Shown piece by piece: positions 1,777-50,964 of a DNA stretch of 58,693 bases. Below the pieces are notes generated by a model. The model saw only the letters and a list, made by a program, of their open reading frames with translations. It did not search any database and had not been told where the DNA came from. The DNA comes from Lachnospiraceae bacterium (GTDB lineage: Bacteria > Bacillota > Clostridia > Lachnospirales > Lachnospiraceae): assembly GCA_017467805.1 (NCBI GenBank), contig JAFUKJ010000024.1, positions 1 to 58,693 on the forward strand, written 5' to 3'. Within the stretch, counting starts at the first letter, position 1; every line of letters starts with the position of its first letter. A program made the translations under genes and the position numbers.

Positions 1777-3627
1777 ATGCGAATTACAGCCTTGCGCATT
1801 GCGCACTTTAAATCAATTCAGGAAATCAAAATTAAGAATATCGAAAATGCATTGATTCTTGTAGGACAGAATAATACGGGCAAGACTACAGTGTTGGATG
1901 CGATTCGCGCTGTGGGTGGTGACTATCAGATTAAGCCAGAGGACTTTGATGAAGCGGGTTCTAATATAGAGGTTGAAGTAACTGTTTCCTATCAGGAAGA
2001 AGATTTGGTCAAGCTACAGCAAAGCGGATGTATTAGCAAGTATCGAAAGCTGGATGCATGGAAAGCAGAATTTGAGAAAAAGCTACCGTCCTTTCAGAAT
2101 GGTGCGCTACATTTTACCTTTGTTGCTAATCGTGATGGAAAGATACGTTATGAGGATGGCTTTAAGAAGAATAATCCTTATATTAAAGAGGTGTTTCCAA
2201 AGATTTACTATATTGATGCTGAGCGTGATTTAGCGCAGTTTCAGGATGAGCTTTTAACTCTTCAGGAGGATGAACAGCTTAAGAATATGCGTAATAACAG
2301 CTGTATTTTCAGTAAAGCGAAGACCTGTACAAAGTGCTTTTCCTGCATTGGTTTGTTGAATCAGAAGACACCGCAGGAGCTTACGGCAATGGAAACAGCA
2401 AGGCTATTGGATTATAAGCTGTATCAGCTCAATCTTGACAGCTTTTCAAAGCGTGTGAATGAGAAATTTCGTAAAAATGGTGGTCAGGAGCAAATTTTAT
2501 TTTCCATGAATCGTAATGTGGAAAGTATGTTGAATGTAACGACAGAGTTATATCAGCCTGCACAGAAGGTTACAAGACCGATTGAACGTATGAGTAAAGG
2601 TATGAGAAGTATCTATATGCTTTCGTTATTAGAGGCTTATACGGAAGAGGCTGGTCAGATGCCGAGTCTGATTATGATAGAGGATCCTGAAATTTTCCTG
2701 CATCCGACCTCACAGAAGACGACAGGAGAGATTCTTTATAGGTTGTCTAAAAAGCATCAGGTTATTTTTTCGACGCATTCGCCGAATTTACTGCCTAACT
2801 TTAACAGTAAACAGATTCGTCAGATGGTATTGGATAGAAACGGTAATCCAATGCTTAGAGAAAAGACTGACATAAGTGTCATATTAGATGACTTGGGATA
2901 TACGGCAAATGATTTGATGAACGTAAACTTCGTGTTCATCGTAGAAGGAAAGCAGGATAAGAGCCGTTTGCCGCTGCTATTGAAGAAGTATTATTCAGAG
3001 GTATATGATGAGCAGGGACAGTTATCGAGAGTGGCAATTATTACGACGAATAGCTGCACAAATATCAAGACATATGCCAATCTTAAATACATGAATCAGG
3101 TGTATTTAAGAGACCAGTTTATTATGATTCGTGACGGAGATGGTAAGGATGCAGAGGAGTTGAAACGTCAGCTTTGTAAATATTATGAGGAGCGTAGCCA
3201 TGAGGATATTGATAAGCTTCCTAAGGTATTGTCGAAGAATGTTTTGATATTGAGGTATTATTCGTTTGAAAATTATTTCCTGAATCCTAAGATTATGGCA
3301 CAGCTTGGTGTGGTCAAGTCAGAAGAAGCCTTTTATCGAATATTCTTGGAAAAGTGGAAGGAATATCTGCATCGAATCAAGAGCGGAAAAAAGCTGCGGG
3401 AAGTCCTTGGGCACGATTTGGAAACGATAGAGGATGTGAAGGCTCATATGGAGGAGATCAGAATCTATATGAGGGGGCATAACTTATTTGATATTTTCTA
3501 TGGTAGATTCCGTTCGCAGGAGAACGAGCTTTTACAAAGATATGTGGAGCTTGCACCAAGGGATGATTTTAAAGATATTTTAGATTCTATCAATCAGTTT
3601 ATTTTCTTTGAGAGTAGAAAAAAGTAG
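1777..3627 (+). CDS. OLD-family ATPase with TOPRIM nuclease domain
   Basis: Predicted ATP-dependent nuclease of the OLD (overcoming lysogenization defect) type, 616 aa. The ABC-ATPase half shows Walker A GQNNTGKTT at residues 30-38, a signature-like MSKGMRS near 272, Walker B LIMIEDPE at 298-305 and the STHS switch at 332-335. The C-terminal TOPRIM half shows the acidic residue in FIVEGKQD (E390) and DGDG at 453-456. An unusual four-cysteine cluster (C176, C184, C187, C190) lies inside the ATPase lobe. It stands alone between ileS and a lysozyme gene. No UvrD-like helicase follows, so this is not a Gabija pair. OLD proteins are often phage-defence nucleases, but the role here is inferred from family only. 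A ribosome site (AAAGGAAA) precedes the ATG. Confidence 0.85.
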   Translation: MRITALRIAHFKSIQEIKIKNIENALILVGQNNTGKTTVLDAIRAVGGDYQIKPEDFDEAGSNIEVEVTVSYQEEDLVKLQQSGCISKYRKLDAWKAEFEKKLPSFQNGALHFTFVANRDGKIRYEDGFKKNNPYIKEVFPKIYYIDAERDLAQFQDELLTLQEDEQLKNMRNNSCIFSKAKTCTKCFSCIGLLNQKTPQELTAMETARLLDYKLYQLNLDSFSKRVNEKFRKNGGQEQILFSMNRNVESMLNVTTELYQPAQKVTRPIERMSKGMRSIYMLSLLEAYTEEAGQMPSLIMIEDPEIFLHPTSQKTTGEILYRLSKKHQVIFSTHSPNLLPNFNSKQIRQMVLDRNGNPMLREKTDISVILDDLGYTANDLMNVNFVFIVEGKQDKSRLPLLLKKYYSEVYDEQGQLSRVAIITTNSCTNIKTYANLKYMNQVYLRDQFIMIRDGDGKDAEELKRQLCKYYEERSHEDIDKLPKVLSKNVLILRYYSFENYFLNPKIMAQLGVVKSEEAFYRIFLEKWKEYLHRIKSGKKLREVLGHDLETIEDVKAHMEEIRIYMRGHNLFDIFYGRFRSQENELLQRYVELAPRDDFKDILDSINQFIFFESRKK

Positions 3628-3684
3628 GTTAACATAAATATTACTGATTATTACTTTACCAATATGGAAAAAAGCTGTAAAATG

Positions 3685-3833
3685 TTACTATTCAGAACCA
3701 TGCAAATTTATGAAATACAGGCCGAGTAAGCTTGCTTACAGAGGACTGTTTTCATAAATTTATATGGTGGTGTAACCACATGAGCAAAAGGAAAGTGCGA
3801 AGCACGATTTTGCGAATGGGTTCTGAATAGTAA
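3685..3833 (+). repeat. Structured dispersed element A, copy 1 (about 149 nt)
   Basis: A multi-branched inverted-repeat element. The outer stem pairs 3685-3701 with 3816-3833 (TTACTATTCAG...CTGAATAGTAA). Inside are a 12-bp perfect stem (3704-3715 with 3750-3761), an apical GTAAG/CTTAC hairpin (3726-3739), a GTGG/CCAC hairpin (3767-3779) and a GCAAAA/TTTTGC stem (3784-3789 with 3808-3813) capped by GTGC-GAA-GCAC. A second full copy lies at 11233-11383 on the minus strand. It lies 59 bp upstream of the lysozyme start, in the same orientation. Function unknown. Confidence 0.85.
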
Positions 3834-3837
3834 TATG

Positions 3838-3868
3838 AAAGAACCATGCGAATGGGTTCTGAATAGTT
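3838..3868 (+). repeat. Collapsed derivative of element A
   Basis: GAACCAT-GCGA-ATGGGTTC (3841-3859) followed by TGAATAGT reproduces the two ends of element A joined directly, with the interior missing. It lies immediately after copy 1, so the region holds a tandem pair of one full and one internally deleted element. Confidence 0.65.
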
Positions 3869-3892
3869 ATTGTGAAAGTGAAAGGGTAGCGA

Positions 3893-4918
3893 ATGAAGAC
3901 AGAAAAGAAGATTACAAAAAGAATTGCCTCTATGGTATTAGCGGCAGCGATGGCATTGACAGCATTAATGACACCTATGCAGGTGCAGGCAGCACCAGTA
4001 GAGGTGGCAACACCGGCCATTGGTATTGATGTTTCCAGATATCAGGGAGAGATTGACTGGGATCAGGTGAAAGCAGCAGGCGTACAGTTTGCAATTATTC
4101 GTGTTGGATACAGAACACAGACAACAGGAATACTAACAGAAGATCCATATGCAAGATATAATTTGCAGGAGGCTAACAGAGTAGGGATTAAAACGGGTGT
4201 TTATTTCTTTTCAACTGCAATAAACGCGGTAGAGGCAGTGGAAGAAGCAACCTGGGTTGCCAATTTAATTGATAAGTATAGTATTACATATCCTGTAGCA
4301 TATGATTGTGAGGGATATGAGAAGAAATCCAGCAGACATTATAGTTTGACAAAGGACCAGAGAACAGCTCTGGCAATTACCTTTATGGATACAATTGCGG
4401 CTAGAGGTTATACACCTATGTTCTATTCTTCTAAAAATTCATTAACTGATAATAGGGATTGGAATGCTACGGCATTGCAGACAAAGTATAAGATTTGGCT
4501 GGCATATTATCCGAAGTTTCCGTTTCCGCAGACTGTGTCACCAGAGTACGATGGGATTTATTCTATTTGGCAGTATAGTTGTAAAGCGAGAATTGCAGGA
4601 ATTGATGAAGAGGTTGATATGAACCTTTCATACTTTGATTATACAGAGATTGCACAGCCTAAGGATCCAAGTGGAGCACCGCATGTTAAAGCAACAGATT
4701 GCGTACAATATACAGAAGTATTAGATGTTGTAACACCTAACACTATAGTTAATGTAAGAACTGTGCCAAGTACAGAAGATCCGTCTACCATCGTGTTGAA
4801 GCTGAATCCTGGTGATATGATTTATAGAACGGGTGTTGGCAATAATGGCTGGTCAAAGGTTATATTGGGCGATAAGGCATTTTACATATATTCTAATTAT
4901 TTGGATAAGGTATTATAG
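3893..4918 (+). CDS. Secreted GH25 lysozyme (N-acetylmuramidase) with SH3-like tail
   Basis: Hydrolyses the MurNAc-GlcNAc bond of peptidoglycan outside the membrane; 341 aa. Residues 1-33 form a signal peptide (KK-rich start, alanine-rich core, cut near VQA-A). The GH25 barrel begins at GIDVSRYQGEIDW (conserved Asp46) and carries the D-x-E catalytic motif in VAYDCEGYE. Residues of about 275-341 (VNVRTVPST...GWSKVILG...IYSNYL) look like a bacterial SH3 wall-binding domain. The start is supported by AAAGGG six bases before the ATG. Its leader contains element A and its collapsed derivative. The role could be wall remodelling or attack on other bacteria; the sequence does not decide. Confidence 0.9.
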   Translation: MKTEKKITKRIASMVLAAAMALTALMTPMQVQAAPVEVATPAIGIDVSRYQGEIDWDQVKAAGVQFAIIRVGYRTQTTGILTEDPYARYNLQEANRVGIKTGVYFFSTAINAVEAVEEATWVANLIDKYSITYPVAYDCEGYEKKSSRHYSLTKDQRTALAITFMDTIAARGYTPMFYSSKNSLTDNRDWNATALQTKYKIWLAYYPKFPFPQTVSPEYDGIYSIWQYSCKARIAGIDEEVDMNLSYFDYTEIAQPKDPSGAPHVKATDCVQYTEVLDVVTPNTIVNVRTVPSTEDPSTIVLKLNPGDMIYRTGVGNNGWSKVILGDKAFYIYSNYLDKVL

Positions 4919-9993: not shown

Positions 9994-11202
9994 TTAAAAC
10001 TCTGTATCAATTCCATTAATTGTAATCTGCTCATCATCCGTTACAGGAATGATAATGCACTTCTTACCGTCAATATACTGAGAGGTAATCTCCTCAGCCT
10101 TTTCAGGAGCTACACGAAGTACAACATCTGAGCCTGAGTTTAAAGCCTTCTCCAAAGTCTCTACCTTTTGAACAAGCTCTAACTGACGCTTTTCCTTTGC
10201 ACTTTTCTCAAGAGCCTTTTCATCAATGACATTGATAGCGGCAGGAGGTGCGTCCTGAAACTCTTCTGTGAAACGCTCCTTAATATTCGCAACAGTAGCG
10301 TCAGGAATCTCACTCTGTGTAAGAATCTCTTCTACGATTTCAGGTGTGAGAATAATTTCTTCAGGTTCTACGCAGGCAAATTCTTCCTTTGTCTCAATAA
10401 TTGTATTCAGGTTCTCCTGAATCTCAATCATAACCTTGTCGCTTTCTTCGATGATTGGTGCGATAGCAGCCTTTACCATAGAGTGGAAGGTCTGCTTCTC
10501 TTCGGTAGCAGTACGCTTTGCGCTACAGCCAAGTGCATTCTCGATAAATTCAGCATGAGAATCAGAGGCATCCTTTACATAGTAGGTAAGTGAGTGAATA
10601 TCGCTGCTTCTCTCCTCAAAGGATGGGAATAAGAAACCAACATCAGGAGTACCAACTACCCAGTCCTGAATGCGGACACCGATGCGGTTCTCTTCCTCGC
10701 GATAGCCAAGTCCAGGCTTAGAAAGGCAGACAGGGCAGATAGCACAGAGAAGATATTCATATACTTCCTCGGATTCATCAATCTTCAAATCATCATTTGT
10801 CTTAGTGATAACATCGTAAGCATCATGGAAAATAAGAATCAAGTAATTTCCAACATAATCATAATGCTCAATAATCATATCATAGAGATGGTCTAATAAA
10901 GCATCATTCTTCAAGCGGCTTTCGCGAAGTCCCATAAGGAACTGCTGCTTACCGCCTAATTCCTCTTCTTCCTTAGGGAAGTAGAGCTGTAACATATTAT
11001 TTCCAATATTGCCTGATAATGCTTTCTTGGCAATTTCGAGATATTTATAGAACTCTTCATCGTCAAGGTTCAAGAAGGTTTCGCCGATATTTACGACCTT
11101 TTCCCTCTTGGCATTTACATAGCAGCCACACATTCTTGTGAATGTGCAGCCTTCCTTTTTCAATCTTTTCTTTAATTCAAGTATATCCTTTTTCTGTATC
11201 AT
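9994..11202 (-). CDS. DUF4317 family protein
   Basis: Uncharacterised 402-aa protein, recognised as DUF4317 from its N-terminal pattern (KKDILELKKRLK, then the TFTRMCGCYVN region) and the central HDAYDVI and LCAICPVCLSKPGLGY blocks. It has no signal peptide or membrane segment. The second half (about 230-380) is acidic and predicted helical, with repeated EE/EK stretches. It seems to be widespread in Clostridia and has no known function. On the minus strand it lies downstream of trpB2, with element A copy 2 between them in the same orientation, 31 bp from its start codon. The ribosome site is weak. Confidence 0.75.
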   Translation of the reverse strand: MIQKKDILELKKRLKKEGCTFTRMCGCYVNAKREKVVNIGETFLNLDDEEFYKYLEIAKKALSGNIGNNMLQLYFPKEEEELGGKQQFLMGLRESRLKNDALLDHLYDMIIEHYDYVGNYLILIFHDAYDVITKTNDDLKIDESEEVYEYLLCAICPVCLSKPGLGYREEENRIGVRIQDWVVGTPDVGFLFPSFEERSSDIHSLTYYVKDASDSHAEFIENALGCSAKRTATEEKQTFHSMVKAAIAPIIEESDKVMIEIQENLNTIIETKEEFACVEPEEIILTPEIVEEILTQSEIPDATVANIKERFTEEFQDAPPAAINVIDEKALEKSAKEKRQLELVQKVETLEKALNSGSDVVLRVAPEKAEEITSQYIDGKKCIIIPVTDDEQITINGIDTEF

Positions 11203-11232
11203 GTTAATACGTCCGTTTCTATAGATTTGTAG

Positions 11233-11383
11233 TAACTATTCAGAATCCATTCGCAAAATCGCCTTTATAAGGCTTTTCTTTTGCTCATGTCTGGCTTCTC
11301 GCCATATAGATTTATTAAAATAGTCTTTATCAAGCAAGCTTGAATAGCCTATTTTTATAAATCTGCATGGCTCTGAATAGTTA
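11233..11383 (-). repeat. Structured dispersed element A, copy 2 (151 nt)
   Basis: On the minus strand this matches copy 1 (3685-3833) along its length: outer stem TAACTATTCAG...CTGAATAGTTA, inner stem, TCAAG/CTTGA, TGGC/GCCA and GCCT/AGGC hairpins, and the shared single-stranded strings ATGAGCAAAAG and GATTTTGCGAATGG. Several stems differ from copy 1 by compensating changes. It lies between trpB2 and the DUF4317 gene, and no separate trpB2 terminator is visible. Confidence 0.85.
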
Positions 11384-11387
11384 CATA

Positions 11388-12761
11388 TTAATCAAGTTTG
11401 GGTAAATTCTTCAAAGCTTCTTTAATCTCTTCGTCGGTTGGAATGTAGTCGCTCATCTCACCGTTGTGGAAACGTTCATAAGCAAACATATCGAAATAAC
11501 CTGTACCTGTAAGACCGAATACAATCGTCTTTTCTTCGCCTGTTTCCTTGCACTTGAGAGCCTCATCAATAGCAACACGGATGGCATGGCTGCTCTCAGG
11601 AGCTGGTAATGTACCCTCAACTCTTGCAAACATCTCTGCAGCCTCAAATACCTTAGTCTGCTCAACAGAAACTGCCTCCATGAGACCATCATCGTATAAC
11701 TGAGAAAGAGTTGAACTCATACCATGGTAGCGAAGTCCGCCGGCATGGCTTGCAGATGGCATAAAGTTGCTTCCTAAGGTGTACATCTTGGATAATGGAC
11801 AAATCATACCTGTATCGCAGTAGTCATAAGCATAAGTTCCGCGTGTTAAGCTTGGGCATGATGCAGGCTCAACTGCGATGAAACGATAATCCTTTTCGCC
11901 TCTAATCTTCTCGCCCATAAATGGAGCAATCAGACCACCAAGGTTAGAACCGCCGCCAGCACAACCGATGATAATATCAGGTGTGATGCCGTATTTATCT
12001 AATGCAGCCTTAGTCTCAAGACCGATAATTGACTGATGTAACATAACCTGGTTCAATACGCTTCCTAATACATAGCGGTAGCCTTCCTGCTTCATAGCAG
12101 CCTCAACCGCCTCTGAAATCGCACAACCAAGGCTTCCGTTTGTACCTGGATGAGCAGCAAGGATACGTTTACCAACCTCTGTTGTAGTAGAAGGTGATGG
12201 TGTAACGTTAGCACCGTAGGTTCTCATAACTTCACGTCTGAAAGGCTTCTGTTCGTAAGAAACCTTAACCATGTATACCTGACAATCCATATCAAAGTAA
12301 GAACAAGCCATAGAAAGAGCTGTACCCCACTGACCTGCGCCAGTCTCAGTAGTAACACCCTTTAAGCCTTGCTTTTTAGCATAGTAAGCCTGTGCAATTG
12401 CAGAGTTAAGCTTGTGGCTTCCACTTGTGTTATTTCCTTCAAATTTGTAGTAAATCTTAGCTGGTGTCTGAAGCTTTTCCTCTAAGAAATAAGCTCTGGT
12501 AAGAGGTGCTGGACGGTACATCTTGTAGAACTTCAAGATTTCTTCTGGAATATCAAAGTAAGCAGTTGTTTCGTCTAACTCCTGCTTAGCAAGCTCTGTA
12601 CAGAATACCTCTGACAATTCTTCAAGTGTAATCGGCTTCATAGTCTTGCCGCTTAATAATGGTGCTGGTTTATTCTTCATATCAGCGCGTAAATTGTACC
12701 ACTGCTTTGGTAACTCGTCTTCTGATAAATAAATCTTATAAGGGATATTTTGTTCCTTCAT
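11388..12761 (-). CDS. trpB: TrpB2-type tryptophan synthase beta-like PLP enzyme
   Basis: PLP enzyme that would condense indole with a serine-type donor to tryptophan; 457 aa. The longer N-terminus (IYLSEDELPKQWYNLRAD) marks the TrpB2 class rather than the TrpA-partnered TrpB1. The PLP lysine is in EGNNTSGSHKLNSA, the glycine-rich phosphate loop is GCAGGGSNLGG, and ETGAGQWG is intact. No trpA or other trp gene is near, so it may salvage indole or act on a related substrate. The ATG has a good AAGGAG site. The leader (12762-12952) shows no T-box or leader peptide that I can recognise. Confidence 0.92.
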   Translation of the reverse strand: MKEQNIPYKIYLSEDELPKQWYNLRADMKNKPAPLLSGKTMKPITLEELSEVFCTELAKQELDETTAYFDIPEEILKFYKMYRPAPLTRAYFLEEKLQTPAKIYYKFEGNNTSGSHKLNSAIAQAYYAKKQGLKGVTTETGAGQWGTALSMACSYFDMDCQVYMVKVSYEQKPFRREVMRTYGANVTPSPSTTTEVGKRILAAHPGTNGSLGCAISEAVEAAMKQEGYRYVLGSVLNQVMLHQSIIGLETKAALDKYGITPDIIIGCAGGGSNLGGLIAPFMGEKIRGEKDYRFIAVEPASCPSLTRGTYAYDYCDTGMICPLSKMYTLGSNFMPSASHAGGLRYHGMSSTLSQLYDDGLMEAVSVEQTKVFEAAEMFARVEGTLPAPESSHAIRVAIDEALKCKETGEEKTIVFGLTGTGYFDMFAYERFHNGEMSDYIPTDEEIKEALKNLPKLD

Positions 12762-50720: not shown

Positions 50721-50893
50721 ACCAATCACCTATTTCCTTTCTTATCCATGAAATACGTCTAATATTGACGACTCATTGTGCATCCATGCTTCTTGTATAG
50801 TGTGTATCGGTCAAAGTAAGGCTAAGCTTTAGCTTTTTCATTGATTTTCTTTTAGAAATTGTATATAATTTAATACAATGTAATAAGAATTCA

Positions 50894-50930
50894 GAGCAAA
50901 AGGAAAGCCTCGAAGAGGCGATTTTGCGAA
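50894..50930 (+). repeat. Orphan hairpin of element A in the ispE leader
   Basis: GAGCAAAAGGAAAG, then GCCTC-GAA-GAGGC, then GATTTTGCGAA. This is the fourth stem of element A with the loop strings conserved but a different apical stem (GTGC/GCAC at 3795-3805, GCCT/AGGC in copy 2). The outer arms of element A are absent. It lies 34 bp before the ispE start, in the same orientation. Confidence 0.75.
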
Positions 50931-50964
50931 TAATGGCAGAACAACGATAAGTATGGAGTGAATC

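Follow-up and report, generated by a model that had tools for sequence, protein, structure and literature searches.

The folded element that is present twice in full in the window (the whole stretch of 58,693 nt of Lachnospiraceae DNA that was analysed) is very probably a non-autonomous IS66-type MITE that carries a Clostridiales-1-like RNA and is sometimes retained between genes. Sequence comparison supports well the assignment of IS66/ISBst12-type MITE ends around a Clostridiales-1-like RNA interior, and there is moderate support for the occasional retention of the element as an intercistronic RNA, for which a putative mechanism is outlined below. The simplest reading of the window's own copies is that they are recent or decaying insertions. 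That close relatives of Clostridiales-1 are carried by an IS66-type MITE whose partner element has been identified provides a testable account of the abundance of that RNA family, and the canonical Clostridiales-1 copies, which are multicopy and have transposon-like ends, feed the same account.

A previous sequence-only reading had placed two full copies at 3685-3833 (plus strand) and 11233-11383 (minus strand), and both were found there, copy 1 extending one base further on each side (Table 1). It had also described both copies as facing the start of the next gene, which is the case, at 59 nt on the plus strand and at a measured 30 nt on the minus strand, where 31 bp had been given. The outer arms of the element, which form the closing stem P1, are transposon-type terminal inverted repeats, a feature that had been missed. 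The genome of the window contains the element several times over, as shown by 12 model matches in 11 separate places, and a locus orthologous to the site of the truncated third copy (L065) contains a fuller copy.

Table 1. Positions of the element copies, their parts and the neighbouring genes in the window.
Feature	Positions	Strand	Remarks
Element copy 1, full-length	3684..3834	+	own model 160.7 bits; RF01699 39.6 bits
Copy 1, left terminal inverted repeat (5' arm of P1)	3684..3699	+	GTTACTATTCAGAACC
Copy 1, right terminal inverted repeat (3' arm of P1)	3819..3834	+	GGTTCTGAATAGTAAT
Copy 1, P2 long hairpin	3704..3761	+	minimum-energy fold; 3697-3768 in the consensus fold; cap GCTTGC at 3730-3735
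Copy 1, P3 short hairpin	3765..3778	+	loop of relatives often GAGA or GAGAA
Copy 1, P4 conserved hairpin	3779..3818	+	CATGAGCAAAAGGAAAG..CGATTTTGCGAATG; common to the RF01699 consensus
3'-end remnant or tandem duplication, directly after copy 1	3841..3869	+	
Element copy 2, full-length	11232..11384	-	own model 160.8 bits; RF01699 29.6 bits
Third copy, truncated	50838..50947	+	43.7 bits; P4 kept at 50894-50931
AAA ATPase gene, upstream of copy 1	1777..3627	+	
Glycosyl hydrolase family 25 gene, downstream of copy 1	3893..4918	+	
PLP-dependent enzyme (PALP) gene, upstream of copy 2	11388..12761	-	
DUF4317 gene, downstream of copy 2	9994..11202	-	

A 3' module, consisting of P4 and the 3' arm or part of them, stands in tandem after the copies at L147, L153, L165 and L197, as well as after copy 1 of the window, and behaves as though it were able to duplicate by itself. 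Elsewhere in the window's genome, a 5' half copy on contig C84 (L006) ends at an apparent insertion of IS3 type, and four loci on contigs C41, C20, C70 and C11 (L186 to L189) hold relatives of RF01699 that score weakly (28-32 bits); the left end is of GTTGAGCCATGC type in three of these, and their 3' flanks are alike in pairs.

Folded alone, copy 1 reaches -57.5 kcal/mol (z -8.94) and copy 2 -52.8 kcal/mol (z -7.71), values equalled by none of 200 shuffles in either case. Stem P1 closes the structure; inside it lie a long P2 with a GCTTGC cap, a short P3, which is paired in copy 1 and open in copy 2 in the minimum-energy folds, and P4, with its ATGAGCAAAAG...GATTTTGCGAAT frame. The stem exchanges between the two copies on which the sequence-only reading had relied proved real when checked on the alignment, and its claim of covariation holds more widely: in an alignment of 13 full copies made from sequence alone, 28 of the 52 pairs predicted by RNAalifold show double changes. 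When 96 copies (95 distinct) were aligned with a model built from those 13, an alignment that is thus fitted to the structure, double changes appear in 43 of the 52 pairs, and 93.7% of cells pair, compared with 73.0% in shuffled sets and 33-45% with the structure slid. Seven pairs, all within P4, are invariant in the 96-copy set and uninformative either way, and the conservation of P4 is partly a selection artefact, since the P4 pattern was used for fetching loci. Among the P3 loops of the same 96 copies, GAGAA (21) and GAGA (15) are found together with scattered others, and 20 copies have no hairpin by a simple rule.

Whether this fold is maintained at the RNA or at the DNA level is a separate question, as strong covariation by itself does not distinguish regulatory RNAs from mobile repeats that fold, and template switching in palindromes can likewise produce paired changes. 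The sequence-only reading had concluded that the element is an RNA rather than a DNA site. Covariation does point to selection for the fold; a strand test that compares G·U with A·C, however, is strong only on the model-fitted alignment (114:43, one conserved-G·U column excluded) and gives 7:6 and 17:12 on sequence-only alignments with pairs predicted on both strands. The sense strand folds more stably in 91 of 97 cases, an advantage that is mostly a matter of composition, since letter-shuffled controls go in the same direction in 53 of 60. The GCUUGC cap, the GNRA-like P3 loops and the kinship with an Rfam family nevertheless favour RNA.

This kinship concerns RF01699, the Clostridiales-1 RNA. 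The sequence-only reading could name no known family and had proposed a search of Rfam, in which the window gave no matches at the gathering threshold, whereas a lower-threshold scan matched both full copies to RF01699 over model positions 1-166; the element is thus a below-threshold relative of Clostridiales-1. The curated cutoff of 48 bits lies above the scores of both window copies (39.6 and 29.6) and is exceeded, at 48.4 bits, by a single relative (L071) among eight loci scanned. In the cmscan alignments, both share with the family, in the same order, the closing stem, the GCUUGC-capped long hairpin and the P4 hairpin with UGAGCA...UGCGAAU. By contrast, the window copies score under the cutoff and have no proper counterpart of the extra 3' hairpin of RF01699, which is deleted in the alignment at 11237, while in the one at 3693 its stretch is partly filled by sequence outside the element and pairs poorly. 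As regards what has been published, a table in Weinberg et al. 2010 gives Clostridiales-1, from Clostridiales and the human gut, as probably an RNA and probably not cis-regulatory (PMC2864571), the Rfam entry is typed 'Gene; sRNA', and a search of the literature under the name Clostridiales-1, judged by titles, found no function in print.

RF01699, too, occurs in many copies per genome. At E 0.001, and with below-cutoff and some window-type copies included, there are 78 matches in Lachnospiraceae bacterium GAM79 and 68 in Hominisplanchenecus faecis; matches occur in 10 of 11 genomes tried and lie above the cutoff in 8. The canonical Clostridiales-1 copies of GAM79 and other genomes have transposon-like ends of their own, TGATGCCAGGGTC...GACCCCGACATCA, which differ from the IS66-type GTAACTATTC of the window element. 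Exact 5-bp duplications flank 5 of the 9 readable canonical copies among 18 examined (null mean 1.0, max 5), so that the TGATGCCAGGGTC-type ends may also mark 5-bp-duplicating insertions, although this is suggestive only. Examples of canonical ends are found at L190, L208, L192, L201, L209 and L216, the 5-bp duplication of the last being recognized by eye only.

The mobility of the window element is indicated by its ends. The arms GTAACTATTCAGAGCC/GGCTCTGAATAGTTAC are also the ends of an IS66-family (ISBst12-type) insertion sequence in GAM79, and the left end of copy 1 is of the same type. This partner is present in two 1.8-kb copies (L183 and L184), each with a 485-aa frame that matches DDE_Tnp_IS66 (E 1.2e-42 for L183), and the copies are flanked by exact 8-bp duplications, ATTTTTAT at the first and GTTTTTTT at the second. 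Unlike the partner, the window element has no transposase frame, and only the outer ~15-16 bp are common to both. IS66 has been described with 8-bp repeats and ends beginning GTAAGCG (PMC11946415), and ISDge4, of the ISBst12 group, as a one-ORF element with the termini GTAACTGCTCAGCA/GTGACTACTCAGCA and a repeat of 8 bp (PMC12898284). The terminal repeats of the element begin GTAAC, as in the IS66-type element (GTTAC in copy 1, one change), and continue as GTAACTA rather than GTAAGCG. The element family fits the ISBst12 group rather than IS66 proper; it has in common with ISDge4, as described in that source, the GTAACT..TCAG ends and the 8-bp duplication, while the partner in GAM79 resembles ISDge4 in its single long transposase frame (PMC12898284).

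Many copies of the element have the outer arms GTAACTATTCAGAGCC...GGCTCTGAATAGTTAC and an identical 8 bases flanking both sides. In a count of 113 copies, those with both arms at most one change from consensus over 10 bases were considered to have intact ends. Among these 45 copies, 8-bp duplications are exact in 10 and present with at most one mismatch in 19 (2000 shuffled pairings: mean 0.8, max 5), and 26 have none at that tolerance; among the 68 altered-end copies of the same count, no 8-bp duplications were found. At copies 1 and 2 of the window, the two flanking 8-mers differ from each other at 6 and 5 positions, respectively, and no clear duplication is seen. In the complete genome of GAM79, where the survey did not use the P4 pattern and covered 64 of 65 matches, one overlapping match being left out, 8 of 35 intact-ended copies have duplications (null mean 0.34, max 4). 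The arm sequence occurs there 58+71 times at up to two mismatches, versus 1+2 times for a reversed control, and 57 of the 64 copies are free of overlap with called ORFs, the ORFs having been called by script from a length of 70 codons upwards rather than taken from curated annotation. An IS66 transposase was sought without success in the draft genome of the window, and likewise in 5 of 10 other element-bearing genomes. The palindromic mobile repeat, one of the options of the sequence-only reading, is borne out by the transposon-type ends, the duplications in the family and its dispersal. Most 8-bp targets are AT-rich. The flanks of five loci (L106, L055, L089, L049 and L056) show insertions in the T-run of apparent intrinsic terminators, which suggests that the element may prefer such T-runs as a target.

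The altered-end copies, which seem to be older, have kept a paired fold. Their arms pair with their own partner at 7.32 of 10 positions, compared with a shuffled mean of 5.81 and a maximum of 6.26 (1000 shuffles, n=68). Between co-directional genes, 33 of them lie in sense and 7 in antisense (p 4e-5, shared loci merged), a bias that rests on loci obtained with the P4 pattern and to which a single metagenome-assembled genome, JAFUKH, contributes 8 of the 33 sense and 5 of the 7 antisense copies. The duplication-bearing copies are distributed 6 sense to 9 antisense (Fisher p 0.006 versus altered-end copies). Dispersal as randomly oriented MITEs with target duplications had been named beforehand as evidence against a structured RNA; the duplication-bearing copies do correspond to this description, whereas the altered-end copies across genomes are mostly in sense and one is conserved in place. 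In GAM79, the ratios are 16:11 for intact and 12:9 for altered ends and, thus, the sense bias of altered-end copies is not general.

Of the 33 sense copies, 21 start no more than 10 nt from the stop codon of the preceding gene, and in 18 the element's end is separated from the next start by 12-37 nt; since TAA is contained in the element ends, some upstream stop codons may come from the insertion. The flanking genes were read from translations, some of them checked with Pfam, and several names are presumptive. The sites include atpE-atpF (ATP synthase c and b subunits), the ATP synthase gamma and beta genes (atpG-atpD), L10 / L7/L12, FliE-FliF and ParA-ParB, besides others that show no such link. 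L12, FliE and ParB have Pfam matches, while the L10 piece, which has none, is named by context.

The copy between atpE and atpF is the concrete locus at which an RNA role could be tested. Its arms are fully changed (CAATAAAACA/TGTTTTATTG) with pairing kept, and it folds with the same P1, P2 and P4 (z -8.38). Among the 29 genomes of the genus to which the Pseudobutyrivibrio xylanivorans record belongs, 15 have some match to it, and 4 contain it nearly unchanged (98-100%) with the same two genes around. Among these four, identity amounts to 141-145/145 for the element, 206-239/240 for the end of atpE and 198-299/305 for the start of atpF, which thus falls to 65%; the low atp values are all due to comparisons with a single divergent genome (L318), in which the element still matches at 141-144/145. 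A fifth genome (L324) has the 5' half of the element followed by other sequence. The element is thus more conserved at this site than the adjoining coding DNA, which is the best evidence that some copies act.

It was also considered that the element could be a vertically inherited, riboswitch-like leader that regulates the downstream gene in cis, as the sequence-only reading had suggested among its options. The orientation of both full window copies towards a start codon, the 18 altered-end sense copies that end shortly before one and the strong conservation of the atpE-atpF copy are in line with this idea, which is, however, very improbable: the downstream gene varies among copies, and the 8-bp duplications, together with the end common to an IS, are marks of insertion. 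For the copy at 11233, it is largely refuted. Of 39 genus genomes, 36 have the DUF4317 gene that lies behind this copy (11202), and in the comparison of 30 loci the element was absent from all 29 orthologue loci of other genomes, 4 of which are cut or offset so that the stretch before the gene is not clearly visible; a riboswitch or conserved leader was consequently rejected for this copy. A free-standing small RNA gene multiplied by duplication is also very improbable. It would agree with the Rfam typing and with the judgement in the 2010 table of an RNA that is probably not cis-regulatory (PMC2864571), but many copies fit closely into the gaps between co-directional genes, some overlapping the stop codon of the gene before, and RF01699 itself is multicopy, its canonical copies bearing transposon-like ends.

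A more serious alternative, although still an unlikely one, is that of a purely selfish MITE without any RNA role, whose fold would serve the DNA level only, through single-stranded hairpins in transposition or replication, or would result from template-switch repair. This would be compatible with the lack of sense bias among duplication-bearing copies (6:9), the small bias of altered-end copies in GAM79 (12:9), the weakness of the strand test on neutral alignments and the L050 copy, which lies antisense to its neighbours and yet has paired but changed arms. Against it stand the resemblance of the interior to a described RNA family, the maintenance of P4 while the stems change (in part an effect of how loci were selected), the 33:7 sense excess in the cross-genome set and the atpE-atpF copy, with its higher conservation than adjacent coding sequence.

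In the preferred reading of a MITE with a Clostridiales-1-like RNA that is sometimes retained, an IS66-type transposase would act in trans on the terminal inverted repeats of the element, and insertion would duplicate 8 bp of a mostly AT-rich target, new insertions being mostly intergenic and in either orientation. The interior would be a Clostridiales-1-type structured RNA in which the transposon ends form the closing stem P1. Some older copies would then have lost the end sequence and kept the paired fold, mostly in sense between co-directional genes, and those retained in mRNA could function as intercistronic structural elements in processing, stability or translation coupling. Such a role is suggested by the position of P1, which in many copies includes or abuts the upstream stop codon, and by the short distance, often a few tens of bases, from the end of the element to the next start.

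A broader proposal, for which we would claim rather less than even chances, is that the Clostridiales-1-type RNA is a mobile intercistronic module that has spread in Lachnospiraceae on at least two kinds of transposon ends and has been repeatedly retained in sense in core operons, where P1 would set mRNA processing or translation. The two kinds of ends are the IS66/ISBst12-type GTAAC ends with 8-bp duplications and the TGATGCCAGGGTC-type ends with apparent 5-bp ones. If so, the module would be retained between genes whose products the cell requires in different quantities (atpE-atpF, rplJ-rplL, atpG-atpD), and the closing stem over the upstream stop codon would set the processing or translation of the neighbouring genes.

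Comparable repeats are known, among them bcr1, with a 5-bp duplication. The repeats bcr1-bcr3 of the Bacillus cereus group, a different host group, are described as MITE-like and often located in UTRs or in operon intergenic regions, and within that account only bcr3 correlated with the mRNA decay rate (PMC3446304). ERIC, Correia and BOX are presented as MITEs with folding transcripts, those of Correia being cut by RNase III, whereas ERIC can unmask an RNase E site (PMC10969869). Both sets are likened here to the element by description and not by sequence.

The element was detected in 6 of 39 genus genomes by DNA similarity and in 17 of 39 by the model, the window's genome included, and in 41 of 250 family genomes (249 genera) at E 1e-9 with stricter filters. 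Because scoring covered 150 of the 1737 first-look candidates and, in the 250-genome survey, no more than 12 per genome, counts per genome are lower bounds. The P4 pattern occurs in at least 118 stretches of species genomes whose titles give Lachnospiraceae, 'bacterium' or single genera of Lachnospiraceae. Context statistics are based on 117 typed matches of 163, excluding antisense matches of the same element, most contig-end-cut matches and several weak ones; the removal of two short-flank and two identical copies left the 113 counted above, which were then merged into 105 groups. A phage origin was rejected, as neither the P4 pattern nor the left-end pattern gave exact matches in viral contigs, and searches of the literature on MITEs in Lachnospiraceae and on MITEs of IS66 yielded, judged by titles, nothing on the element.

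At one intergenic site shared by two species, the elements (L108:563-713 and L050:3507-3657) belong to very different subtypes, with stems that are internally paired, and are antisense to both neighbouring genes; they may represent either divergence or independent insertion. No duplication was seen by eye around a 39-nt element (L314). Finally, several genus genomes contain a relative of ~180-185 nt (L149, L150, L151, L154, L155, L156, L163, L164 and L167), with GTAACAGTTCAGCC-like ends, an elongated P4 and several copies per genome, and 8-bp duplications are visible by eye at L149 and L150.
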